From Mailhella massiliensis (GTDB lineage: Bacteria > Desulfobacterota > Desulfovibrionia > Desulfovibrionales > Desulfovibrionaceae), in contig NZ_LT706943.1 of the NCBI RefSeq assembly GCF_900155525.1, positions 1 to 64,000 on the forward strand: DNA of 64,000 nt. Reading direction: 5' to 3'. Below, one piece after another: positions 48,844 to 61,388 of this stretch; within the stretch, counting starts at the first letter, position 1, and each line of letters opens with the position of its first letter. Below the pieces are notes generated by a model. It was not told where the DNA came from and made no database searches. It worked only from the letters and a program-made list of their open reading frames with translations. The position numbers were made by a program, and so were the translations under genes.

Positions 48844-49848
48844 TTACTTTTTGGCGGCGGCTACACGTGCAGCTTCGGCCTTGAGTTCATTGAGCAGGGT
48901 GACGTCGATCTTGGGGAATTCCTTGTAGAGTTCGCTGGTGTTCTTGCGGAGCATGGCGATCTCTTCTTCTGTCGGGGTGTAGATGCTCAGATTTTTTTCC
49001 TTGATGGCCTGCATGCTTTCCGCTTCGTCTTCCAGCACGTTTTTACGCTGCTCCTGCACATAGAGATCGATAGCTTCCTGGAAAACGGCCTTGTCTTCGG
49101 CCGGGAGCTTGTTCCACCATCTGGTGGAAGTGTAGATGATCTGGGGCAGATAGGTATGCTGGGTGAAGACTACGGACTTGCACACTTCGTCCCACTTGCC
49201 CTTGACGAGGTAGGTGATGTCGACGTCCACACCGTCGATGACGCCCTGCTGAAGGCCGGTGTAGACTTCGGAGCCGGGCATGGGAGTGGGGTTCATGCCC
49301 ATGGCCTTGAGAACGGCGATGTGCACGGGAGAGGAGGAGGCGCGCACCTTGACGCCCTTGAGTTCCGCGAGGCTGTGCACGGGCTTGTTGAGATAGATGT
49401 TGCGGTAGCTGTAACGGACGAAGGTAAGGGGCGTGACGGCCTTGTTGGCAGCGGCGGCCAGAATCTTCTTGCCTACGGGGCCGCTCAGCACTTCATCGGC
49501 GGTGTCTGCATCGGGGAAGATGTAGCCGAGGTCGAACATGGCGAATATGGGCATGAAGTTGCTGAGGTTGGAAGGGCCTTCCACGAGGAAGTGCACCGTG
49601 CCGAGCTGCATGCCCTGATAGGCGCTTTCCATGGTACCGAGTTTGAACTGGTCGTAGATGTCCACACGGTACTTGCCGTTGGTCTTTTCCTCAATGAAGT
49701 TTTTCATGGTGACCAGCGAACGGCAGAGAGCCATGGAGGAAGCCGCATGCGTGGTGATTTTGACGGGAATGGGCGCCGCCTGGGCGGGAGTGAAGCTCAG
49801 AAGGCCGACAAGCGCACACAGACAGGAGAGACGGAACAGACGGTTCAT
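48844..49848 (-). CDS. dctP: TRAP transporter solute-binding protein, DctP family
   Basis: A 334-aa periplasmic receptor. The signal peptide is MNRLFRLSCLCALVGLLSFTPAQA. The mature domain has the DctP arrangement (IPVKITTHAASSMALCRSL..., KGVKVRASSSPVHIAVLKAMGMNPTPMPGSEVYTGLQQGVIDGVD), including the Arg and the GxVxGVE/D segment that bind carboxylates in this family. The C-terminus is helical. It is the third gene of dctQ-dctM-dctP. The ligand is an organic acid by family; the exact one is unknown. Confidence 0.92.
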   Translation of the reverse strand: MNRLFRLSCLCALVGLLSFTPAQAAPIPVKITTHAASSMALCRSLVTMKNFIEEKTNGKYRVDIYDQFKLGTMESAYQGMQLGTVHFLVEGPSNLSNFMPIFAMFDLGYIFPDADTADEVLSGPVGKKILAAAANKAVTPLTFVRYSYRNIYLNKPVHSLAELKGVKVRASSSPVHIAVLKAMGMNPTPMPGSEVYTGLQQGVIDGVDVDITYLVKGKWDEVCKSVVFTQHTYLPQIIYTSTRWWNKLPAEDKAVFQEAIDLYVQEQRKNVLEDEAESMQAIKEKNLSIYTPTEEEIAMLRKNTSELYKEFPKIDVTLLNELKAEAARVAAAKK

Positions 49849-49870
49849 AAAGGACTCCTTGCGACGGATG

Positions 49871-51145
49871 TTATTTGACCAGACAGAGGGAAAGCCAAGG
49901 GACATAGGCGATGATGTAATATACGATGACCATGGCGGCAATGTAGGGCAGAATCGCCTTGCTGAGCTGCGCGAAGGAAATGTCGCCGATGGCGCAGCCT
50001 ACATAGAGGTTCATGCCCACGGGCGGCGTGATGTTGCCGAGAACCACGCCGTAGGCGATGAGCACGCCGAACTGTATGGGATCCATGCCTGCCTGTACCA
50101 TCATAGGCAGGAGTATGGGCGTCATGATGAGCACGATGGCTACGGACTCCATGAAGGTTCCCAGGATGATGAGCAGCGTGACGATGAGGAACATGAGCAC
50201 ATGCTTGTTGGTGGTAATGCCGTTCAGAAGGTCGGCGACCACGGCGTCGGCGTTGAAGTACACGAGGATGATGCCGAGCGCCCCTGCCGCGGTGATGACG
50301 AAGAACATCATGCCCGTGGTCTTGGCGGTGGAGTAGAGAATGTCCTGAAATTTTTTCCAGGTCATGGTCTTGGTAATGAAGGTTTCCGCAAGCAGGGCGT
50401 AGACCACGGCCACCACACCGGCTTCCGTGGGGGTGGTGATGCCCGTATAGATGCCGCCCAGGACGATGACGGGAACCATGAGAGCCCACTTGGCTTCCCA
50501 TACGGCGGCGAGGCGTTCCTTTGCTCCGGCGCGCACGGATTTGAGGCCGTAGCCCTTCTTGGCGGCTATGATCATGCTGGTTCCCATGAAGGCCAGCATG
50601 GTGAGAATGCCGGTGGGAATGACCGCAATGAACAGGTCGCCGATGGAAACACCTGCGGTCGCGCCGTAGATGATGAGTACGGTGCTCGGGGGAATGAGGG
50701 CGCCCAGCGTTCCCGAGGCGGTGTTGACGGCGGTGGAGAAGTTGCGCGGATAGCCTTCCTTCTGCATGGCGGGGATCATGATGCCGCCGATGGCCGCCGT
50801 GGTGGCGGGCGGCGAACCACAGAGGGAACCGTAGAAGGCGCATGCCAGCACGGAAACGAGGGAAAGGCCGCCCGTGATGTGTCCTACGAGAGTTTTGGCG
50901 AGCTTGAGCAGAGCTTCAGCCATGGAACCGCGCTGCATGATGTCGCCTGCACAGATGAAGAAGGGCAGGGCGAGCAGCGGGAAGGAATCGAAGGTGGTGT
51001 AGAGCTTCTGGGTGAAAAGCGCATAGGGGAGATCACCGACGAAGATGGCGGCAAGCACGGCGAGACCTATGGCTGCGCCTATGTGCAGGGTGAGGGCAAG
51101 CCCTACGATCAGTACCCAGAACATGGTGACAAGAACAGGATCCAT
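49871..51145 (-). CDS. dctM: TRAP transporter large permease, DctM family
   Basis: A 424-aa protein with about 12 membrane helices. It has the typical PPATTAAIGGIMIPAMQKEGYPRNFSTAVNTASGTLGALIPPST and IPTGILTMLAFMGTSM segments. The ATG at 51145 is supported by AAAGGAG upstream. It works with the DctQ (51156-51647) and DctP proteins in Na+-coupled uptake. Confidence 0.93.
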   Translation of the reverse strand: MDPVLVTMFWVLIVGLALTLHIGAAIGLAVLAAIFVGDLPYALFTQKLYTTFDSFPLLALPFFICAGDIMQRGSMAEALLKLAKTLVGHITGGLSLVSVLACAFYGSLCGSPPATTAAIGGIMIPAMQKEGYPRNFSTAVNTASGTLGALIPPSTVLIIYGATAGVSIGDLFIAVIPTGILTMLAFMGTSMIIAAKKGYGLKSVRAGAKERLAAVWEAKWALMVPVIVLGGIYTGITTPTEAGVVAVVYALLAETFITKTMTWKKFQDILYSTAKTTGMMFFVITAAGALGIILVYFNADAVVADLLNGITTNKHVLMFLIVTLLIILGTFMESVAIVLIMTPILLPMMVQAGMDPIQFGVLIAYGVVLGNITPPVGMNLYVGCAIGDISFAQLSKAILPYIAAMVIVYYIIAYVPWLSLCLVK

Positions 51146-52407: not shown

Positions 52408-53283
52408 TCAGGCTGACGGCAGGTCAAGTCCCAGGAGCTTGGCCGCGTTCTTCCAGAGGAACTTTTCCTTGGGAATGGGCAGCCACGGACGATCCAGAGA
52501 TTCACGCAGAGCCTGACCCACGCCTCTGATGGGGTAGGAGCTGGCGAAGAGCACCTGATCCTGAAGCATATGGTTGTACATGAGGATCTGATCGTCCACG
52601 GTGTTGATGAAGGGGAAGTAGAAATAGCTGTCGGGCAGAGAGTAGATGTTGGGGTAGCGCACCATGATGGCCATGAATTCCACCAGCTTGGGATAGCAGG
52701 AGTGCGGTACCACGATGTTCAGTCTGGGACAGGCTATGGCGATGTCCTCGATGTCCTTCGGTTCGTTCCAGCTTGTGTCGTTGCCGCAGAGCCAGTTCAG
52801 GGTGATGACCAGCGTCATTTTCTCCTCTTCCACCGCACGGTAAAAGTCCATAAGGCAGGGATCGTTGACGCGGTAGCACTTGTCGAGCCAGAAAGGCTCC
52901 ACGCAGATGCCCTTCATGCCGAGGCTCTTCATGCGGCGTACCTGGGCGAGGGCGTCGGGCGCGGTGGGATCAAGGGCGGGCATCCCCATGAATCGACCGG
53001 GGTACAGGTTCATGAAGTCGAGGATTTCTTCAGGAGTGACATTGCCGGATCCTACGGAGTCGGTTTTGGTGAAGCGCCCGACGATGACGCCGAGGTCGAT
53101 GCCCGCCTCGTCAAGTTCCGCCATGAACTGACCGTAATCGCCGGTCTTGGCGGAAATGACGGGTTCCCGGCCCTCAGCCATGAGGGCGAAGGCTCCGGAG
53201 CTGGGCGGATTGTTCCAGGCTTTGAACAGGCCGGTTTCCCGGAAGCTCTTGAAGGGGGGACGGATGCGGAAGTCGATGATCAT
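52408..53283 (-). CDS. Divergent amidohydrolase-fold protein, paralogue 1 (RxR in place of HxH)
   Basis: A 291-aa TIM-barrel protein resembling amidohydrolase family 2 (ACMSD-like decarboxylases and hydrolases). The start at 53283 gives MIIDFRIRPPFKSF. Metal residues expected in the family are changed: the first-strand HxH is R6-x-R8, the mid-barrel His site reads LVITLNW, and the late Asp site is LFASSYPIRG. A His remains in VVPHSCYPKL. It is therefore probably not a normal metal hydrolase. It lies 117 bases after paralogue 2 and before the flavoprotein/TRAP genes. Confidence 0.8.
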   Translation of the reverse strand: MIIDFRIRPPFKSFRETGLFKAWNNPPSSGAFALMAEGREPVISAKTGDYGQFMAELDEAGIDLGVIVGRFTKTDSVGSGNVTPEEILDFMNLYPGRFMGMPALDPTAPDALAQVRRMKSLGMKGICVEPFWLDKCYRVNDPCLMDFYRAVEEEKMTLVITLNWLCGNDTSWNEPKDIEDIAIACPRLNIVVPHSCYPKLVEFMAIMVRYPNIYSLPDSYFYFPFINTVDDQILMYNHMLQDQVLFASSYPIRGVGQALRESLDRPWLPIPKEKFLWKNAAKLLGLDLPSA

Positions 53284-53400
53284 AAGGCGCTCCTTGATGA
53301 TGGTAACTGGAATGATCTGACAAGTGGCGGCCGAACGCGGAAAAGAGGAGCCTTGTCCGCAAGGCACGGCCGGTCGTCATGGAGACGGAAGGGGCGTGCT

Positions 53401-54264
53401 TCAGGATATTTGAAGATGCAGCAGTTTGGCCCCGTTTTTCCAGAAGAATTTTTCTTTCGGGCCGGGGAGCCATTGTCCCTGTTCCAAGGAAAGCTCCACG
53501 GCTTGTCCGAAGCCGCGGATGGGGTAGGAACTGCCGAACAGAACCTGATCCTGGAGCATGTGATTGTACATGATACGCTGCTCCTTAGCCGTGTTGATGA
53601 ACGGAAAGTAAAAATAGCAGTCGGGGATGAGGTAGATGTTGGGGTAGCGTACGGCGATGGCCATGAGTTCCGTGAGCAGCGGCCAGCATGCGTGGGTGAT
53701 GAGTATGGGCATGGCGGGGCAGGCCATGGCTATCTGTTCCACATGATAGGGCGAGTTCCACTTCGTGCTTTCGCCGCAGTTGAAGTTCAGCGTGGTGGTG
53801 AAGAGCAGCCCCAGGGATTCGATTTTCTTGTAGAGGGGGAACAGACGGCTGTCGTTGAGAAAGAGGGGTTCGGAACTCCAGAAGGGTTCTATACATATCC
53901 CCACCATGCCCATGGCGGCGGCACGTTCGATCTGTTCCATGGCATCGGAAGCCAGAGGATCGACGGCGGGCATTCCCGCGAATCTTCCCGGATACTTTTT
54001 CATGATGCTCAGGAGATCATCTGCCGTAACATTGCCTCTCCCCTTGTCATGAACCTTAGTCATGCGTCCGATGATGACGCTTATATCAATACCGGCATCC
54101 GTCATTTCCTTGACGAATAAATCCATATCACCGTCCATGGAAGGAGTTTTTATTCTTCCTTCCCACTGGTTACGGTAAGGCGAATTCGGATTTTCCCAAA
54201 CTTCAAATGCGCCGGACCTGAGATAGCTTTCAATCGGTGGTCTTACCCTGAAATCAATAATCAT
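53401..54264 (-). CDS. Divergent amidohydrolase-fold protein, paralogue 2 (RxR in place of HxH)
   Basis: A 287-aa sister of the gene at 52408-53283. It shares MIIDFRVRPP, EPFW, ITHACWPLL (retained His) and LFGSSYPIRGFGQA; the HxH and Asp positions are again R-x-R and S. The start at 54264 is downstream of a -24/-12 promoter match (54346-54361). An in-frame extension upstream to 54504 would be hydrophobic and unlike its sisters and is rejected. It is probably the first gene of the operon that leads to dctP. Confidence 0.8.
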   Translation of the reverse strand: MIIDFRVRPPIESYLRSGAFEVWENPNSPYRNQWEGRIKTPSMDGDMDLFVKEMTDAGIDISVIIGRMTKVHDKGRGNVTADDLLSIMKKYPGRFAGMPAVDPLASDAMEQIERAAAMGMVGICIEPFWSSEPLFLNDSRLFPLYKKIESLGLLFTTTLNFNCGESTKWNSPYHVEQIAMACPAMPILITHACWPLLTELMAIAVRYPNIYLIPDCYFYFPFINTAKEQRIMYNHMLQDQVLFGSSYPIRGFGQAVELSLEQGQWLPGPKEKFFWKNGAKLLHLQIS

Positions 54265-54345
54265 GGCTTCATCCTGATATGTGCATGTTGAAGGCAAAAA
54301 TTCCATGAATATGGAATAGACGGTATCTGTTATGTTTTTATTCTT

Positions 54346-54361
54346 TGCAAGAAACATGCCA
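54346..54361 (-). promoter_or_regulatory. Sigma-54 promoter of the amidohydrolase/TRAP operon
   Basis: The - strand reads TGGCATGTTTCTTGCA, with the GG and GC dinucleotides at the standard -24/-12 spacing of RpoN promoters. It is about 80 bases before paralogue 2's ATG and next to a sigma-54 activator gene on the other strand. Confidence 0.75.
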
Positions 54362-54643
54362 TATTGAAAAGCCGATGAAGTCCGAAAGGATTCGCGTGAA
54401 AAGAACCTGAGACAGGCCAGAAAAGTTTTTTTTCTTTTCATGAGGGGAAAAAAGAGCAGAGATGATGTTGTCAGGAGAAAAAGAGTGAGGTAATATTGCA
54501 TCACTTTAAAAAGATGAAAACAAATATAACTATTTGGTAATAAAGAATAAAAAAAATAAATTTTTTATTTGTGCCCTTTTTCATAAGCTGAAAAGCATCA
54601 GGGCATCTGTTTGCATTTATATTAAAAAATATAATATTTCAAT

Positions 54644-54660
54644 AGATTATTTAATAATCT
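54644..54660. repeat. Perfect palindrome in the divergent region
   Basis: AGATTATT-T-AATAATCT forms a perfect 17-base inverted repeat 75 bases upstream of the activator ATG. It may be an operator or a binding site of the activator; an AT-rich palindrome by chance is also possible. Confidence 0.4.
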
Positions 54661-54734
54661 AAAATGTTCAACTTTCGTATTATGATGCATAAAAGCCTCA
54701 AATGAAGGAACGGCTTTGAATCTGGAGGACCGCC

Positions 54735-56150
54735 ATGGATATGATCGAGGATTTTTTTGCCCGGAATCTGGAAATGCTGAAAACTCTGGCCGACGATCAG
54801 AGCGTGGGGGTATGGATCAACTCCGCCGACGGAGAGATTCTGTATGCGAGCCGGGGGGTCCGGGATCAGTACGGCGTCGATCCCGAGCAGCTTCTCGGGC
54901 ATAATGCCACCTATCTTGTGGAAAGAGGTCTTGCCAGCAGTCAGGGCCTGCTTGAGACGCTCCGTACCCGGGAGATAGGCAGGGCGGTATGCACCACGCA
55001 GATCGGGCGCAAGGTGTCCATCACCTGCTATCCGTTTTTTCGGGAGAACGGAAAGCTGTGGCGGATCATAGGCATCAGCAGAAGCCTGGAGGATACGGCA
55101 GAAGCGCGAAAGGAAGAGGAGCTTGAGGAAGAGAGTTCTTCCCGCATACGAATAGAGGAGAAGCTGAAGGAACCCTTCATTGCCGTGAGCAGTCAGATGC
55201 GGACCATCATGGACTCTCTGGAAAGGCTGGGACAGAGCGACGCCACCGTCATGATCCGAGGAGAGTCGGGCGTCGGCAAGGACGGCATAGCCTACAGGCT
55301 GCACAAGTTCAGCCGTCGGGCCGAACAGCCCTATGTGGTGATAAACTGCGCGACCATTCCTGAAAATCTTATAGAATCCGAGCTGTTCGGTTATGAGAAG
55401 GGCGCGTTTACCAATGCCACATCATCCAAGATGGGGCTTTTTGAAATGGCTAATCACGGTACCATCTTTCTGGACGAGGTGGGGGATATGCCGCTTGCCG
55501 TTCAGGTCAAGCTGCTGCGCTGCATTCAGAACAGGCAGATTCTGCGGGTGGGCGGCAAAAAGATGATAAACCTCGACGTGCGCTTCATTACGGCCACCAA
55601 TCAGCCTGTGGAGGAAATGGTTGCCGCCGGGAAGTTCAGAGAGGATCTTTATTATCGCCTCAACGTCATAAAGCTGATGATTCCCCCGCTGCGGGAACGA
55701 TATCAGGATATTATGCCGCTTGCGAGGCATTTCCTGCGGAATTTCAACAAGAAATACAGCACAGACAAGCAGTTTTCCAAGGCGGTACAGCGTATTTTTC
55801 ATGCCTATTCATGGCCGGGCAATGTCAGAGAGCTGGAAAACACCGTGGAACACGCGGTGGCGCTCTGTCCGTTTGCCATCATAGGGCCGCAGTTTGTGCC
55901 CCAGTACATTACTGATGCACTGAAAAGAGAGGGAGAAGGGGGAGAAGTCATGACCCTGAAGGAGGCGACGGAGGCGTGCGAGAAGAAGCTTCTTGCGGAG
56001 GTGATGCTGCGATATCCTTCCAGCAGAAAGGCTGCACAGGTTCTGGGGTGCGATCAGACCACGGTGCTTCGCAAGCTGAAGAAGTACGGTCTGACCTATG
56101 AAAGCCCTGACCCCGGTGAGAACAGGAAGTTTTTCCAGATGGGGCTGTAG
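54735..56150 (+). CDS. Sigma-54-dependent transcriptional activator, PAS-AAA-Fis
   Basis: A 471-aa bacterial enhancer-binding protein. The N-terminal PAS-like sensor (~10-120) is followed by the AAA+ domain: Walker A GESGVGKDGIA (~175), loop 1 GAFTNA (~223-228, canonical GAFTGA has Gly at position 5), and Walker B GTIFLDEVGDM. The C-terminal Fis-type HTH (SSRKAAQVLGCDQTTVLRKLKKYGL) binds DNA. It should activate the RpoN promoters at 54346-54361 and possibly 61434-61449. A ligand could be sensed by the PAS domain. Confidence 0.92.
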   Translation: MDMIEDFFARNLEMLKTLADDQSVGVWINSADGEILYASRGVRDQYGVDPEQLLGHNATYLVERGLASSQGLLETLRTREIGRAVCTTQIGRKVSITCYPFFRENGKLWRIIGISRSLEDTAEARKEEELEEESSSRIRIEEKLKEPFIAVSSQMRTIMDSLERLGQSDATVMIRGESGVGKDGIAYRLHKFSRRAEQPYVVINCATIPENLIESELFGYEKGAFTNATSSKMGLFEMANHGTIFLDEVGDMPLAVQVKLLRCIQNRQILRVGGKKMINLDVRFITATNQPVEEMVAAGKFREDLYYRLNVIKLMIPPLRERYQDIMPLARHFLRNFNKKYSTDKQFSKAVQRIFHAYSWPGNVRELENTVEHAVALCPFAIIGPQFVPQYITDALKREGEGGEVMTLKEATEACEKKLLAEVMLRYPSSRKAAQVLGCDQTTVLRKLKKYGLTYESPDPGENRKFFQMGL

Positions 56151-56178
56151 GGGGGCGATCCGAAGGCCGCCCCGTACC
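56146..56178. terminator. Hairpin between the convergent activator and nitroreductase genes
   Basis: The stem GGGGGCG / CGCCCC with a 9-base loop lies in the 28-base gap between two stop codons. There is no long U-run. Confidence 0.4.
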
Positions 56179-56994
56179 TCAGAGCGTGTTGTCGTCGTTG
56201 AAAAGCACGGGAGGGTGCTCTCGCGGGGGCAGACGCTTGTAGCGGATGGCCGGATAGCCGGCCATGAGGGCGCCAGAGGCGGCGTATCCCTCGGGAAGGC
56301 GGAGTTCTTTCAGATAATGGTCTCGGGCGATCTGAATGACGCTTCCGGCCCAGCATGAGCCGATGCCCCGAGTGAGCAGGGTGAGCTCCAGCTGAGTGAT
56401 GGCGATGGCGCAGTCAGTGGGACCCCAGGGAGCTCCGACGGGAGTCATGGCTACAATAAGACACGGCGCGCCCCGCAGGAGACTGTCGCGACCTTCCACG
56501 GCGTTGTCGTAATGACTGCGCAGTCGTTTCGTACCGCCCTGTTCGTAGTAGGGGAGAAGTTCCTTCCGCAGGCGTTCCAGCCTTTCCGGATCGTCGATGA
56601 TCTTCCAGCACAGCGTTCTCATGTTGGAGGCGGAAGGTGCACTGGCCGTATCGGCCAGAGCTTCCAGAAGCAGCTTCCGTTCCGGTTTCCGGCGGGAAAA
56701 GCAGCCTGTGGACCGTCTGCCTCTGAGCAGGTCGGCAAGCTGGCTGGAGGACGGACAGGGCGCGGCTTCGGGGAGGTGTTCGCCGGTCAGGCCGTCCAGG
56801 CTTACGGCAAAGGAAGGGCATACGGACAGGCAATGCCCGCAGTGCATGCACAGTTCGATCTTGTCTTTTCGTATGTTCATGCTGCCTGTTACGGGATCTT
56901 TTTCAAAAATGAAGCGACGGCAGGCTTTTTCGCACAGGCCGCATCCGATGCATCGTTCCGGGTTGATGCTGAGAAAGAAAGAGTTTTTTTTCAT
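56179..56994 (-). CDS. Ferredoxin-nitroreductase fusion protein
   Basis: A 271-aa protein. The N-terminal two-cluster ferredoxin domain (CIGCGLCEKAC and CMHCGHCLSVCP) is followed by a nitroreductase-like FMN domain (~85-260: RGRRSTGCFSRRKPERKLLLEAL, ASNMRT, LTLLTRGIGSCWAGSV). AGGAGA lies before the ATG at 56994. It is the last gene of an operon with mmgE/prpD-like, amidohydrolase and OYE genes; it may reduce a C=C or N-O bond or pass electrons. Confidence 0.85.
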   Translation of the reverse strand: MKKNSFFLSINPERCIGCGLCEKACRRFIFEKDPVTGSMNIRKDKIELCMHCGHCLSVCPSFAVSLDGLTGEHLPEAAPCPSSSQLADLLRGRRSTGCFSRRKPERKLLLEALADTASAPSASNMRTLCWKIIDDPERLERLRKELLPYYEQGGTKRLRSHYDNAVEGRDSLLRGAPCLIVAMTPVGAPWGPTDCAIAITQLELTLLTRGIGSCWAGSVIQIARDHYLKELRLPEGYAASGALMAGYPAIRYKRLPPREHPPVLFNDDNTL

Positions 56995-57131
56995 GCGGTC
57001 TCCTGAGAGGCGGAAGCGGGCGGTATTCATGCCGCCCGCTTTTCGCGGGAAAGAGGTGGCGGATTTCCGGGCGTCCGTGCCGGGCAGAGGTCGCTGCGGG
57101 GAGGCGACCTCTGCCGTGTTTTCCGTGCGTG

Positions 57132-58541
57132 TCAGGCCGGAGTGAGCCGGTCTGCATCCGTGAGGCCGGGGGACGCTTCCGGCAGCATGAGCTGAACGAG
57201 GTCGGCGGAGTCCTGGAGATGCTCCAGGCGGTGAACCGTTTCCGAAAGTTTCTGCAGGCGTTTTTTTGAGATCGGATACAGGGAGGCGGCAGCACACATG
57301 GCCAGCTTCCGTTCCACTTCCATGAGGCTGAGCGGAGCTTCCCATGAGCCTTTCAGTCTGCGGCACACCCCGCTGTATTCCCTGCCGTTGTTCATGACGG
57401 CCGTCATGGTGACGGGCACCATGGAGGCTGCGGGAACGGAGGCATCCACCGAGAGCTGCACTTTGCGGGCAAGCTCCCGGATCTCGGGGTTGCGCACGCC
57501 TTCGGGGGAGAAGTCTTCCAGACCGGCAGTACCTTTTGCCAGCCCCAGAGCTCCGCACCATGCGGCGCTGAGTATGCTCTCGACCACGGGGTTGCCCGTG
57601 ATGTCATCGTAGCTCTTGCCGGAAACGCGCCAGGCGACTTCCGGCATGGCGATGTGCACGGAGCGTATCTGATGGTGATCGATTCCTTTCTCGTGGAGCA
57701 TGATGCCCGCCTCCAGCGCGCCGACCGCATCCCTGGCGCAGGGAAAAGGCTTGAGGCCGATGTGCAGCATGTCCCATTCCGTGCCGAGATCCCGGACGAT
57801 GGCCTCCCGATCATAGTCGTTGTTTTCATAGAGCGGCATATAGCCGTAGGGACCTTCCAGCACATGAACCGGCCCGGTGATTCCTTTGAGGGCCAGCTGA
57901 CAGGCCGTGATGCCGCAACGCACGGCAAAGCCCGGGTGCATACGCTTGACGAGAGCGCCGTCGACATTGGACTGCAGGGTGGATGCCGTCTGGGCGTAGG
58001 CTATGCCGTATGCGGCCGAAAGCTGCTCCACGTTCAGTCCCATGAGCTTGCCCGCAACGGTTGCGGCGCCGAAAGAAGCGAGCGTTCCCGTGCGGTTGAA
58101 ACGAAGCGGAGCATGGATGCTCCGGCCGATGCGTCCCATGACCTCGGCGCCGAGCGTGAGAGCGGTGATGAGCCTTTCGCCGCAGACGTTTCCCAGCTGT
58201 TCCGCCACGGCAAGACCGGCGGCCAGACAGGTGCAGTGCGTATGGGCGATGGCCTTGTCGTGGGTGTCGTCGAAGTCCAGCGCCTGAAAGAGGGTGGCAT
58301 TGACCATGCCGGCATGGATGGCGGGAATTTTTCCCCCGAAGACCAGCACCGTGGCCTGCTCCGCACCACCCGTTTCCAGCGCCCATTGAGCCAGTTCGCG
58401 GCAGCCGGGTGCGGCGGCTCCGGCCAGACCGCATGCCAGCGTGTCGAGGATCAGATACTTGTCATGTTTCACGACCTCTGCAGGCAGGTCGCAGAAATTC
58501 CTGTTGACGACGAAGTTGGCAATTTCCTTGATGGCGTCCAT
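57132..58541 (-). CDS. MmgE/PrpD family protein
   Basis: A 469-aa all-alpha domain protein of the 2-methylcitrate dehydratase/cis-aconitate decarboxylase/iminodisuccinate epimerase group (DTLACGLAGAAAPGC, DFDDTHDKAIAHTHCTC, LKPFPCARDAVGALEAG). No propionate genes (prpB/C) are nearby, so the activity is more likely isomerisation, dehydration or decarboxylation of another organic acid. It lies 11 bases after amidohydrolase paralogue 3. Confidence 0.85.
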   Translation of the reverse strand: MDAIKEIANFVVNRNFCDLPAEVVKHDKYLILDTLACGLAGAAAPGCRELAQWALETGGAEQATVLVFGGKIPAIHAGMVNATLFQALDFDDTHDKAIAHTHCTCLAAGLAVAEQLGNVCGERLITALTLGAEVMGRIGRSIHAPLRFNRTGTLASFGAATVAGKLMGLNVEQLSAAYGIAYAQTASTLQSNVDGALVKRMHPGFAVRCGITACQLALKGITGPVHVLEGPYGYMPLYENNDYDREAIVRDLGTEWDMLHIGLKPFPCARDAVGALEAGIMLHEKGIDHHQIRSVHIAMPEVAWRVSGKSYDDITGNPVVESILSAAWCGALGLAKGTAGLEDFSPEGVRNPEIRELARKVQLSVDASVPAASMVPVTMTAVMNNGREYSGVCRRLKGSWEAPLSLMEVERKLAMCAAASLYPISKKRLQKLSETVHRLEHLQDSADLVQLMLPEASPGLTDADRLTPA

Positions 58542-58552
58542 GGCAGCTTCCG

Positions 58553-59413
58553 TCAGAGATTGAGAAGGCGGGCCGCGTTGTCATACATGGTGAGCTGCAG
58601 GGCTTCCGTCGTGAAGGGCAGGGCTTTCCACAGTTCTATGCTCTGGGCGATGCCCCGCACGGGGTAGGAACTGGCGAAGAGTACGCGGTGACGCAGGAAG
58701 GTGTTGACGGTATGCACGAAGTTTTCCGCTCCGAACATGCCGGGCAGGTAGACATAGCAGTCCGGGATGAGCCAGATGTTGGTGTGCATCATGGCGACGC
58801 CGGTCATGAGTTCGAGATAGGGCCAGCAGGCGTGGGGCACAACGATTTTCAGCCGGGGAAAGGTCTGAGCCACATGCTGGACATGGATGGGGTGTGTATA
58901 GGTGAGATCCTTGACGTAAAGCCCGCTCTGCATGATGGACACGATCATTCCGTGATCCTGGCAGTACTGGTAGACCCTGTCGATGACGGGATCATCGGCG
59001 TAGAGGGGCGGCGTGCTGAAGCTGGGGTCGATGCAGACACCGGTAAATCCCTGGGAACGGCGCAGTTCCAGTTCTTCCATCACATGGGGATCACGGGGTT
59101 CCACAGCGGCGAAGGGGAAGAACGCCCCCGGGTGTTCCCGTGACAGCATCAGGGCGTCGTCGTTGGTGGTGGAGGTGTGTGAGGTACCTATCTCACTGAC
59201 TCTGCCCATGAGAACGGCCGCTTTCACGTCGGCTTCCCTGAGTTCCTCAAGAAGGAGCGGAACGGAGCGTTGCTCGGCCGAGGGAATGGGCCTGCGGCCT
59301 GCGGTGGTGAACATTTCTTCCGTCGGATCCTCCGGAGCGTTCCAGCAGCTTCCAAAGATTCCCAGGGAAAGATTGCCTGCATAGGGCGGACGGACACGGA
59401 AATCGATAATCAT
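58553..59413 (-). CDS. Divergent amidohydrolase-fold protein, paralogue 3 (RxR in place of HxH)
   Basis: A 286-aa protein related to the two paralogues at 52.4-54.3 kb but more diverged. It shares MIIDFRVRPP, VVPHACWPYLEL and LFASSYPVRGIAQS; the mid-barrel His is also missing (MIVSIMQSG). The retained pattern in all three suggests a specific non-metal or altered-metal role rather than decay. Start 59413; 70 bases after the OYE gene and 11 bases before the PrpD-like gene. Confidence 0.8.
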   Translation of the reverse strand: MIIDFRVRPPYAGNLSLGIFGSCWNAPEDPTEEMFTTAGRRPIPSAEQRSVPLLLEELREADVKAAVLMGRVSEIGTSHTSTTNDDALMLSREHPGAFFPFAAVEPRDPHVMEELELRRSQGFTGVCIDPSFSTPPLYADDPVIDRVYQYCQDHGMIVSIMQSGLYVKDLTYTHPIHVQHVAQTFPRLKIVVPHACWPYLELMTGVAMMHTNIWLIPDCYVYLPGMFGAENFVHTVNTFLRHRVLFASSYPVRGIAQSIELWKALPFTTEALQLTMYDNAARLLNL

Positions 59414-59483: not shown

Positions 59484-61388
59484 TCAGAGGGCGCAGGCGC
59501 ACAGGAATCCTTCGCGCGTGGCATCCTGTATCCTGCGGGGAGCCTGAGCGTCGCCTATGACATGGACATGACCGAAGGTTTTCTGAAGGGGTTCAAGCAG
59601 AGACTGGTCGGAGCGATATCCCGCCGCGATGATCACCGTATCGGCAGGGTATGTTTCGCCGTGGCTGATGACGCCGCAGGATTCGATGGCGGAGATGGCG
59701 GCGCCCGTGCAGACCTGCACATGACAGCGTTCGAGCTCTTCCCTGATATGGCCGATGAAGGTGGCTCCGCAGTCGCGGGCGATGGCCCCGGCCATTTCGA
59801 GAATGGAGACCTGACGGCCTTTTTCCGCAAGAAAGAGCGCCGTTTCCACACCGACGAGTCCGCCGCCGATGATGACGACTTTTTCTCCGGTACGGACGCT
59901 GCCTGCCAACACGTCTTCCGCCATCACCACCAGGGGCAGATTCACGCCCGGAATGGGGGGCAGGCTCTGCCGCGCGCCGGTGGCAAGCACGACGTGGTCG
60001 GGGCTGTACTTCTGAACGTCCCCGGGCGTGAGTATGCGTTCGGACACGATCTGCACGCCCAGCTTTTTCATCTGGCCATGCAGGTATTCACGATACAGAA
60101 GAAAGGAAGCCTTTTCCGGCGGGGCCGCAACAATGCCGAGCTTTCCGCCGGAGGCGGGATCGGGATCGCACAAGGTGACGGCATGGCCGCGCAGAGCTGC
60201 GACCCGGGCGCATTCCATGCCGGCGGGACCGCCGCCGATGATCACGACGCGTCCCGGACGGGGGCTTTTTTCCACGTTGCGTTCCGCTTCAAAGGAACAT
60301 CGGGCGTTGACCAGGCATTCCGCCGCCCTGCCGGACATGATGCCGTCCGCGCAGCCCTGATTGCAGGCGACGCAGTAGCGGATTTCTTCATCACGGCCGT
60401 CCTTCATTTTCAGGATGAAATCCTCATCGGCCAGAAGCCCTCTGCCGATGGCCACCATATCGGCCTTGCCCGAGGTGACGATGTCTCTGACGAGGGCGGC
60501 GCTGTTCAGCCTTCCGGCGACGATGACGGGCACATGCAGGTTCTGTTTCAGCTCCTGCGCGTAGGGAAGGAGAAAGCCCCTTTTGACGAACATGGGCTGT
60601 ATGCTCCATTGCAGGGCGTCGTAGCTGCCGGCGGAAAGGCTGACGGCGCTTATGCCCGCTTCTTCCGCCATTCGGCAGATGGTCCGGACTTCCTCGAAAT
60701 GCAGGCCGTCTTCCAGAAATTCCTCGGCCGAGATGCGTATGGTGACGGGCACGCGGTCCGAAGCTTCCCTAAGAAGGGAACGAAGCACGCGCATGGGAAA
60801 ACGGCAGCGGTTTTCCAGTGATCCGCCGAAGGCGTCGGTTCTTTTGTTGCTGTGGGGGGAAAGAAAGCTGTGCAGCAGGTAGCCGTGGGCGAAATGAACT
60901 TCGATGAGGTCAAACCCCGCCGCCATGGCCCGCCGCGCGCCGAGAATGAATTTCTGCTCCAGTTCATCCATGTCCTTTTCCGAGACTTCCCTCGGGTGGC
61001 TGTTCACCACGGCGCAGGGCAGGGCGGAAGGCGCGAGAGGAGTAAGCCCGGTTACGGCCTCGGAAGCCTGTCTGCCCGCATGGTAAAGCTGTGCTCCCAT
61101 GCGGCCGCCCGCGTCATGAACGGCGCTGCAGAGCTTTTCCAGACCGGGGAGAAAGCTATTGTCCCAGATGCCTATCTGGGAGGGGAGTCCCGATCCTTCG
61201 GGTGAGATGGAGATGGAACCGGTCATGATGATGGCGGCCTCCTTTTCCGCCCGTTCCCGGAAAAAGCGGATGAGGCGTTCGCTGACGCAGCCGCCTTTGT
61301 GGGCCATTCCGTTTTCCATGGGAGCCATCATGAAGCGGTTTTTCAGAGTAAGGGGTCCGATGCTTAGGGGGGAGAAAAGGTCAGTCAT
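59484..61388 (-). CDS. OYE-family FAD/FMN/4Fe-4S oxidoreductase (2,4-dienoyl-CoA reductase-like)
   Basis: A 634-aa protein: an OYE TIM barrel (1-~340, with AHGYLLHSFLSPHSNKRTDAFGGS), an Fe-S site CVACNQGC...CLVNARC, an FAD motif VVIIGGGPAGMECARVAAL and an NAD(P) motif VVIIGGGLVGVETALFL. This is the FadH/trimethylamine-dehydrogenase-like arrangement that reduces activated C=C bonds. The ATG at 61388 lies downstream of a -24/-12 promoter match. It is the first gene of the OYE-amidohydrolase-PrpD-nitroreductase operon. Confidence 0.9.
   Translation of the reverse strand: MTDLFSPLSIGPLTLKNRFMMAPMENGMAHKGGCVSERLIRFFRERAEKEAAIIMTGSISISPEGSGLPSQIGIWDNSFLPGLEKLCSAVHDAGGRMGAQLYHAGRQASEAVTGLTPLAPSALPCAVVNSHPREVSEKDMDELEQKFILGARRAMAAGFDLIEVHFAHGYLLHSFLSPHSNKRTDAFGGSLENRCRFPMRVLRSLLREASDRVPVTIRISAEEFLEDGLHFEEVRTICRMAEEAGISAVSLSAGSYDALQWSIQPMFVKRGFLLPYAQELKQNLHVPVIVAGRLNSAALVRDIVTSGKADMVAIGRGLLADEDFILKMKDGRDEEIRYCVACNQGCADGIMSGRAAECLVNARCSFEAERNVEKSPRPGRVVIIGGGPAGMECARVAALRGHAVTLCDPDPASGGKLGIVAAPPEKASFLLYREYLHGQMKKLGVQIVSERILTPGDVQKYSPDHVVLATGARQSLPPIPGVNLPLVVMAEDVLAGSVRTGEKVVIIGGGLVGVETALFLAEKGRQVSILEMAGAIARDCGATFIGHIREELERCHVQVCTGAAISAIESCGVISHGETYPADTVIIAAGYRSDQSLLEPLQKTFGHVHVIGDAQAPRRIQDATREGFLCACAL

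Follow-up and report, generated by a model that had tools for sequence, protein, structure and literature searches.

The described protein closest to those studied here is BB4693 of Bordetella bronchiseptica (PDB 3irs and 3k4w), an uncharacterised TIM-barrel protein that starts with an arginine-x-arginine (R-x-R) motif, has a retained histidine (His) and carries Thr-Ala-Tyr-Pro where an aspartate (Asp) motif usually stands. Better known are the metal-dependent members of the Amidohydro_2 family (PF04909), including ACMSD, gamma-resorcylate and 5-carboxyvanillate decarboxylases, and LigJ. In ACMSD-type enzymes the metal ligands are an H-x-H (or E-x-H) motif on strand beta-1, a His on beta-5 and an Asp on beta-8, and a beta-6 His serves as general base. 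LigI and 4-sulfomuconolactone hydrolase provide precedents for metal-independent chemistry and for sulfite leaving from an amidohydrolase fold. The sulfite-lyases IslA and HpsG belong to a different family, the glycyl-radical enzymes, and are gene-cluster neighbours of R-x-R genes, not homologues. We analysed a stretch of 64,000 nucleotides from Mailhella massiliensis (contig NZ_LT706943.1, positions 1 to 64,000; hereafter the window), which encodes three R-x-R proteins, RxR1, RxR2 and RxR3. Our tentative preference, held at rather less than even probability and resting on sequence comparison and gene neighbourhoods, is that R-x-R proteins form a metal-free BB4693 branch of the Amidohydro_2 fold acting in organosulfonate or sulfite pathways, likeliest as a sulfite-eliminating lyase.

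Loss of the metal-ligand residues in the R-x-R branch

The three genes are the following.

53401-54264, minus strand: RxR1, R-x-R amidohydrolase-fold protein of 287 amino acids; PF04909 64.5 bits, 3irs 112.6 bits
52408-53283, minus strand: RxR2, R-x-R amidohydrolase-fold protein of 291 amino acids; PF04909 55.1 bits, 54% identity to RxR1
58553-59413, minus strand: RxR3, R-x-R amidohydrolase-fold protein of 286 amino acids; PF04909 92.5 bits, closest PDB sequence 3irs at 150 bits

All three score above the curated PF04909 cut-off of 26.4 bits and thus belong to the Pfam family, and an NCBIfam scan returned no model that names any of them. A sequence-only reading of the window had described three open reading frames starting MIIDFR(I/V)RPP, in which H-x-H is replaced by R-x-R, the mid-barrel His is lost, the late Asp has become serine (Ser) and one His is kept. 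The intact reading frames and an alignment with H-x-H proteins confirmed this description. Gene calls were made with a codon-usage gene finder, which placed the start of RxR1 at 54138; the MIIDF start at 54264 was adopted instead because the R-x-R segment is conserved.

In the alignment the beta-1 H-x-H positions correspond to R6 and R8 in all three proteins (RxR1 numbering). The beta-5 His column holds threonine in RxR1 and RxR2 and methionine in RxR3, the beta-8 Asp column holds Ser in all three, and the beta-6 His is retained throughout. The beta-5, beta-6 and beta-8 columns were also aligned against PDB relatives, in alignments that stop short of beta-1, and the beta-6 His aligns with a His of PDB 3s4t. 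The metal-dependent Amidohydro_2 enzymes therefore share with the R-x-R proteins a common fold (Z about 20), PF04909 membership and an aligned beta-6 His, but their metal-ligand residues are missing from the aligned columns of the R-x-R proteins. An ordinary metal-dependent subfamily whose ligands had merely been shifted by misalignment was not borne out, since the replacements sit in the aligned columns of the H-x-H proteins. Judging from these columns, the usual metal ligands are very probably truly absent.

The same pattern extends well beyond the window. Among 132 aligned R-x-R proteins, none has the beta-5 His (the column holds T, M, S, Q or A) or the beta-8 Asp (A, S, G or T), and all keep the beta-6 His, which is His191 in RxR1 numbering. 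A third arginine (Arg), R67, is present in 129/132, and further conserved columns are Asp4 (132/132), Pro248 (132/132), Asn209 (126/132) and Asn277 (130/132). The R6 and R8 columns are 132/132 by construction, because the rows were selected through the R.R motif. In six H-x-H controls the beta-5 His, the beta-8 Asp and the first beta-1 His are aligned in 6/6, the second beta-1 His in just 3/6 because a gap was placed beside it. An Asp in a PDxY motif is common in R-x-R proteins and absent from four of them (L010, L011, L013 and L019), which are this genome's four aligned members adjoining radical enzymes.

A tree of 138 rows separated the 132 R-x-R proteins from the six H-x-H proteins with a branch support of 99 (quick SH-aLRT), so the R-x-R proteins form one clade, with BB4693 inside it. 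The tree, built with a quick method, contains 32 open forks and some long branches; it sampled 5 of 24 H-x-H rows together with three initially unclassified R-x-R rows (L151, L193, L200), and ten other unclassified rows were left out; one further protein, L214, was counted as R-x-R in the neighbourhood comparison below, yet is H-x-H by tree and alignment. Intermediate beta-1 types lie outside this sampling, so the single-clade result covers R-x-R versus six H-x-H rows. Within the clade, RxR1 and RxR2 are sister genes (about 54% identity) and RxR3 is more distant (about 33% identity to RxR1). BB4693 differs in having Methylobacterium nodulans and Cupriavidus members as its nearest kin, not the window subclade. 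The simplest reading of the aligned sequences would be one early, shared ancestral change that has since been maintained.

The sequence-only reading had taken the identical changes in three clustered paralogues as a sign of a selected role and not of decay. Maintenance of the replacements across a wide clade fits such a role; the three paralogues themselves are not independent evidence, given one shared ancestral change. Decay into pseudogenes was ruled out by the intact reading frames and by column conservation across the 132 proteins. The notion of a local peculiarity of three clustered genes had to be given up in view of the large clade and its solved member, 3irs. The genome has 22 Amidohydro_2 matches, among which at least 15 score highly with the R-x-R profile, all of them R-x-R by sequence; four other Amidohydro_2 proteins (L182, L183 and two in L184) are clearly of the H-x-H type. 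Same-genus relatives reach at least 23 R-x-R copies per genome. Counts of R-x-R genes in this genome and its relatives, and those derived from them, refer to the matches listed and are lower bounds.

The AlphaFold2 model of RxR3 (mean pLDDT 75.7) matches 3irs best, with Z 30.7 against 24.7 for the next structure, and the R-x-R profile likewise scores 345 bits with the 3irs sequence and 79 bits with the next PDB sequence. By the secondary structure of the predicted model, R6/R8, R71, H194 and S248/S249 of RxR3 would stand just after strands 1, 2, 6 and 8, at what is usually the active-site end of such barrels; the model has low confidence at residues 12-49 and 73-80 and barely shows strand 8. 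LigI-type proteins of COG3618 (PDC-lactonase type) share the fold with the model (2ffi and 4i6k, Z about 20); none is among the PDB sequence matches of the R-x-R profile at E 1e-6. Among open papers, no literature was found on the function of BB4693 or on the R-x-R branch.

Two observations concern other Amidohydro_2 genes. L133, L134, L068, L069 and L071-L074 have a beta-1 motif that is neither H-x-H nor R-x-R, and the Pseudosulfitobacter and Sulfitobacter proteins of that group adjoin AMP-binding and amidase genes. At L024 (G000:C28:947000-950500), two similar Amidohydro_2 frames of 109 amino acids lie about 2 kb apart, one match containing TAG; this is probably a tandem duplication, because the opposite strand has near-repeated long frames.

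Sulfonate and sulfite genes beside R-x-R genes

Gene neighbourhoods make it likely that the R-x-R family is tied to sulfonate or sulfite pathways, a link that is new as far as open papers show. In the Desulfovibrionales the partner is a glycyl-radical enzyme, and 9/9 tested neighbours score above the NF048011 cut-off. The radical enzymes of L118 and L106 are nearest to 7kq3, an isethionate sulfite-lyase (1529 and 1519 bits), with 1223 and 1211 bits for 6lon, which we take to be HpsG. Those of L205, L178 and L105 are nearest to 5ymr, deposited as a formate acetyltransferase and presumably an isethionate lyase, with 7kq3 and 6lon 20 to 95 bits behind. The isethionate-type cluster of this genome, L106, holds on one strand a TRAP binding protein, a TRAP permease, the radical enzyme, its activase, an R-x-R gene at positions 8239-9078 of L106 and a sigma-54 regulator; 27 bp separate activase and R-x-R gene, and the binding protein scores 441 bits with the isethionate-binding DctP 8t9t and 178 with the next structure. 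NF048011 is named for sulfopropanediol dehydratase and passes the L106 and L118 proteins nearest to isethionate sulfite-lyase, so the name looks too narrow. In a second genus of the family (G030), R-x-R genes stand beside a radical enzyme (L205, contig C156) and beside OYE-type (old-yellow-enzyme) genes (L201, contig C72), both modules as in the window's genus, and at L167 and L176 within that genus R-x-R genes lie beside an SsuABC-like transporter. In the published description of the Bilophila wadsworthia IslAB microcompartment cluster, the last listed gene is a 'predicted amidohydrolase', HMPREF0179_00649 (PMC8667426).

Across 41 relatives, 34/55 radical enzymes have an R-x-R gene no more than 5 kb away, with 2.6 expected at random (cut-off 1000 bits; 10/65 matches fell below it and were left out). 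None of 36 other Amidohydro_2 matches listed is that near a radical enzyme, and one lies within 10 kb; this control list includes at least one R-x-R protein (L193). In a comparison of 129 R-x-R with 24 H-x-H genes, sulfur genes (radical enzyme, TauE, YeiH, molybdopterin oxidoreductase or SsuD) occur within 5 kb of 38 versus none, OYE of 39 versus none, TRAP genes of 69 versus 3 and sigma-54 regulators of 41 versus 1; 13 Amidohydro_2 rows were unclassified here, three of them R-x-R (L151, L193, L200). Among 394 genomes of the phylum besides the window's own, 13 have both an R-x-R gene and a radical enzyme, 5 only the former, 7 only the latter and 369 neither, with six candidates per genome scored and the 30 returned loci checked for R-x-R. 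Within the order and outside the genus, 3 genomes have both and 19 neither; within the genus, G002, G003 and G010 have a radical-enzyme match and no R-x-R gene among the matches listed. TauE/SafE was considered as a genus-wide partner and dropped for weak enrichment.

The initial lead came from homologues on plasmids. Among 17 regions, 11 carry an R-x-R gene, and in 8 of the 11 a gene related to sulfonate or sulfite lies no more than 8 kb away; the annotation of the six regions without R-x-R shows no such sulfur genes, one of them (L074) being without annotation. The Cupriavidus and Paraburkholderia regions are unannotated and were read from gene-finder calls. In Aliarcobacter, Azospirillum and two Methylocystis plasmids the gene near R-x-R is SsuD, accompanied by sulfonate transport, SfnG or MsuE genes. 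Three loci, two of Methylobacterium nodulans and one of M. bullatum, have an exporter whose annotation reads sulfite exporter, sulfate exporter or YeiH, together with a molybdopterin oxidoreductase; this oxidoreductase, with an adjoining cytochrome c at two of the three, may be a sulfite dehydrogenase. The Cupriavidus R-x-R locus has TauE/SafE nearby. The plasmids of M. nodulans (L061) and Cupriavidus sp. P-10 (L065) combine R-x-R with fumarase, fumarate-reductase-type and sulfite-exporter genes and are candidate sulfosuccinate clusters; such neighbours would be expected if sulfosuccinate gives fumarate and sulfite. Mapped on the tree, radical enzymes are the neighbours in two separate clades, SsuD and exporters are those in another, and a fourth clade has exporters with the nearest kin of BB4693.

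The window locus and the physiology of the genus

The genes around RxR1, RxR2 and RxR3 are listed below.

59484-61388, minus strand: OYE-type flavin/Fe-S reductase of 634 amino acids; PF00724 251 bits; start from the gene finder
57132-58541, minus strand: MmgE/PrpD-family protein; PF03972 210 bits, PF19305 78 bits
56179-57030, minus strand: ferredoxin-nitroreductase fusion; PF00881 and 4Fe-4S domains
54735-56150, plus strand: PAS, sigma-54 activator and helix-turn-helix regulator; PF00158 226 bits, PF13426, PF18024
51660-52331, minus strand: FMN-reductase or flavodoxin-like protein; PF03358 64 bits
51156-51647, minus strand: candidate TRAP small permease (DctQ) of 163 amino acids, named from its position between large permease and flavoprotein
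49871-51145, minus strand: TRAP large permease (DctM); TIGR00786 397 bits, above cut-off
48844-49905, minus strand: TRAP solute-binding protein (DctP); NF037995 201 bits, above cut-off
54346-54361, minus strand: sigma-54-type -24/-12 site before RxR1, exact to TGGCAYRN4TTGCW; such a site likewise precedes this gene in L025 and L026
61434-61449, minus strand: sigma-54-type -24/-12 site before the OYE gene, one mismatch; such a site likewise precedes this gene in L025 and L026

The best NCBIfam model for the OYE gene is BaiCD at 490 bits, under its cut-off of 825. The sequence-only reading had pointed to TRAP, OYE, PrpD and nitroreductase genes as neighbours; they are present, and the informative neighbourhoods turned out to be those of the relatives, which point to organosulfonates or sulfite.

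The genes form two runs on the minus strand, one in the order OYE, RxR3, PrpD and ferredoxin-nitroreductase, the other RxR1, RxR2, FMN reductase and TRAP subunits Q, M and P, with the sigma-54 activator gene on the opposite strand between them. The runs are separable modules, since another genome of our set (G009) carries them on different contigs (L160 and L162). Both sigma-54-type sites stand just before the first gene of a run. Their number is unremarkable, because the two sites found in the window at up to one mismatch to the consensus compare with 2.2 expected by chance. Such a site occurs in 19/29 scanned R-x-R loci versus 2/9 loci without R-x-R.

A search of 19 genus genomes detected dsrA in 12 of them, and sat or an aprA above cut-off in none. 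The 12 other genomes searched in the order all have dsrA and sat, and 11 have aprA above cut-off, that of the twelfth being split in two pieces. The dsrA of this genome (G000:C19:84514-85776) lies on the same contig past the end of the window. Possession of dsrA without sat or aprA above cut-off fits a sulfite respirer that needs sulfite from elsewhere, as is described for Bilophila (PMC8397734, PMC8667426).

Proposed reaction and rival explanations

With no metal ligands but three Arg and one His, proton transfer beside a bound oxyanion would be the natural chemistry. Arg6, Arg8 and Arg67 may form an anion pocket in place of the metal, with the beta-6 His that is retained serving as acid/base; the Arg pocket would grip the sulfonate, the His would shift a proton, and sulfite would depart. 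One route might convert a beta-sulfo acid or carbonyl compound into an alkene, which OYE would then reduce or a hydratase hydrate. Another might split a carbonyl-bisulfite adduct into an aldehyde or ketone and free sulfite, which would be useful beside SsuD, IslA or HpsG. In the window, both runs might constitute one sigma-54 regulon, in which TRAP uptake would feed RxR1, RxR2 and RxR3, OYE and PrpD would act on the carbon product, and sulfite would pass to Dsr. Whether the window's own three proteins act on sulfonates we regard as evenly balanced, and sulfite elimination as the R-x-R reaction is a tentative assignment that we would sooner doubt than assume. The most far-reaching version we consider unlikely: a new class of sulfite-lyase in which three Arg replace the metal and the His drives a retro-addition without radicals, oxygen, flavin or metal, present in up to at least 23 copies in genomes of the window's genus, many of them accompanied by a transporter or sigma-54 switch of their own, so that a Dsr bacterium in which no sulfate-activation gene was found could harvest sulfite from many sulfonates.

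Several observations weigh against a sulfonate role. No known desulfonating or listed sulfur gene was seen among the scanned neighbours in the window, SuyAB and Xsc not having been searched genome-wide. This genome's radical enzymes lie on contigs other than the window's, and the window DctP is without clear specificity, the isethionate-binding DctP ranking third among its PDB matches at 134 bits. More widely, for 91/129 R-x-R genes none of the listed sulfur genes lies within 5 kb, the R-x-R plasmid loci of Hydrogenophaga, Desulfolutivibrio and Caballeronia show no sulfonate gene, and in 7/20 radical-enzyme genomes of the phylum sample no R-x-R gene was found. TauE/SafE is weakly enriched in the genus, at 8/81 versus 2.8 expected (81 matches listed, from genomes with a listed R-x-R gene), and mostly through one orthologous cluster. 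With 24 genes, some of them at orthologous loci, the H-x-H control set is small. Because related loci are non-independent, Fisher values come out too strong, and the counts are to be read as strong associations and not as exact probabilities. A second desulfonase is not obviously needed, since IslA, HpsG and SsuD already release sulfite, and two sub-reactions must be assumed. Finally, no dsrA was found in 7/19 genus genomes, including G007 (rated 100% complete) and G013 (96%), and G012 has an aprA-like match under the cut-off.

It is possible, with less than an even chance, that the R-x-R proteins are metal-free lyases, isomerases or hydratases for ordinary carboxylates, that the sulfonate contexts belong to some subclades only and that the window clusters serve to break down enoates or di- or tricarboxylic acids. 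Three Arg would bind carboxylates too, and these neighbourhoods also allow a reading as carboxylate metabolism: TRAP genes accompany more than half of the 129 R-x-R genes, OYE genes are roughly as frequent there as the listed sulfur genes combined, several R-x-R loci have fumarase and tripartite tricarboxylate binding proteins nearby, and PrpD is in the window. For the window's subclade such a role is almost as likely as a sulfonate role. However, it leaves unexplained why IslA/HpsG-type enzymes, SsuD and exporters recur in separate branches, when such genes are near 0/24 H-x-H controls. An accessory, non-catalytic anion-binding protein on an old enzyme fold (a sensor, a chaperone or a partner of the neighbouring enzyme) would account for the change in every usual metal-ligand column, for the company of enzymes as different as radical lyase, SsuD and OYE, and for tandem pairs such as RxR1/RxR2. 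We hold this to be improbable, given that the invariant His at the general-base position and the invariant or near-invariant Asp4, Pro248, Asn209 and Asn277 look catalytic and that R-x-R members occur without any single common partner enzyme. A relocated metal site built from the retained His and other conserved acids is more improbable still: His191 and Asp4 never vary and many members have the PDxY Asp, but that Asp is missing from the four aligned members of this genome beside radical enzymes, and the four usual ligand columns of the family are changed in 132/132, two of them to Arg.

If the sulfonate link is true, it would assign a role to a branch of a famous superfamily whose structure is solved but which is otherwise uncharacterised, add metal-free handling of C-S bonds, and name genes to examine for the unknown organosulfonate sources of hydrogen sulfide in the gut. 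On the weaker reading, that of a metal-free branch whose pocket is Arg-Arg-Arg-His, the proteins would still be a clear example of how an active site can be remade once its metal is gone, and the label 'metal-dependent amidohydrolase' would mislead for R-x-R genes.

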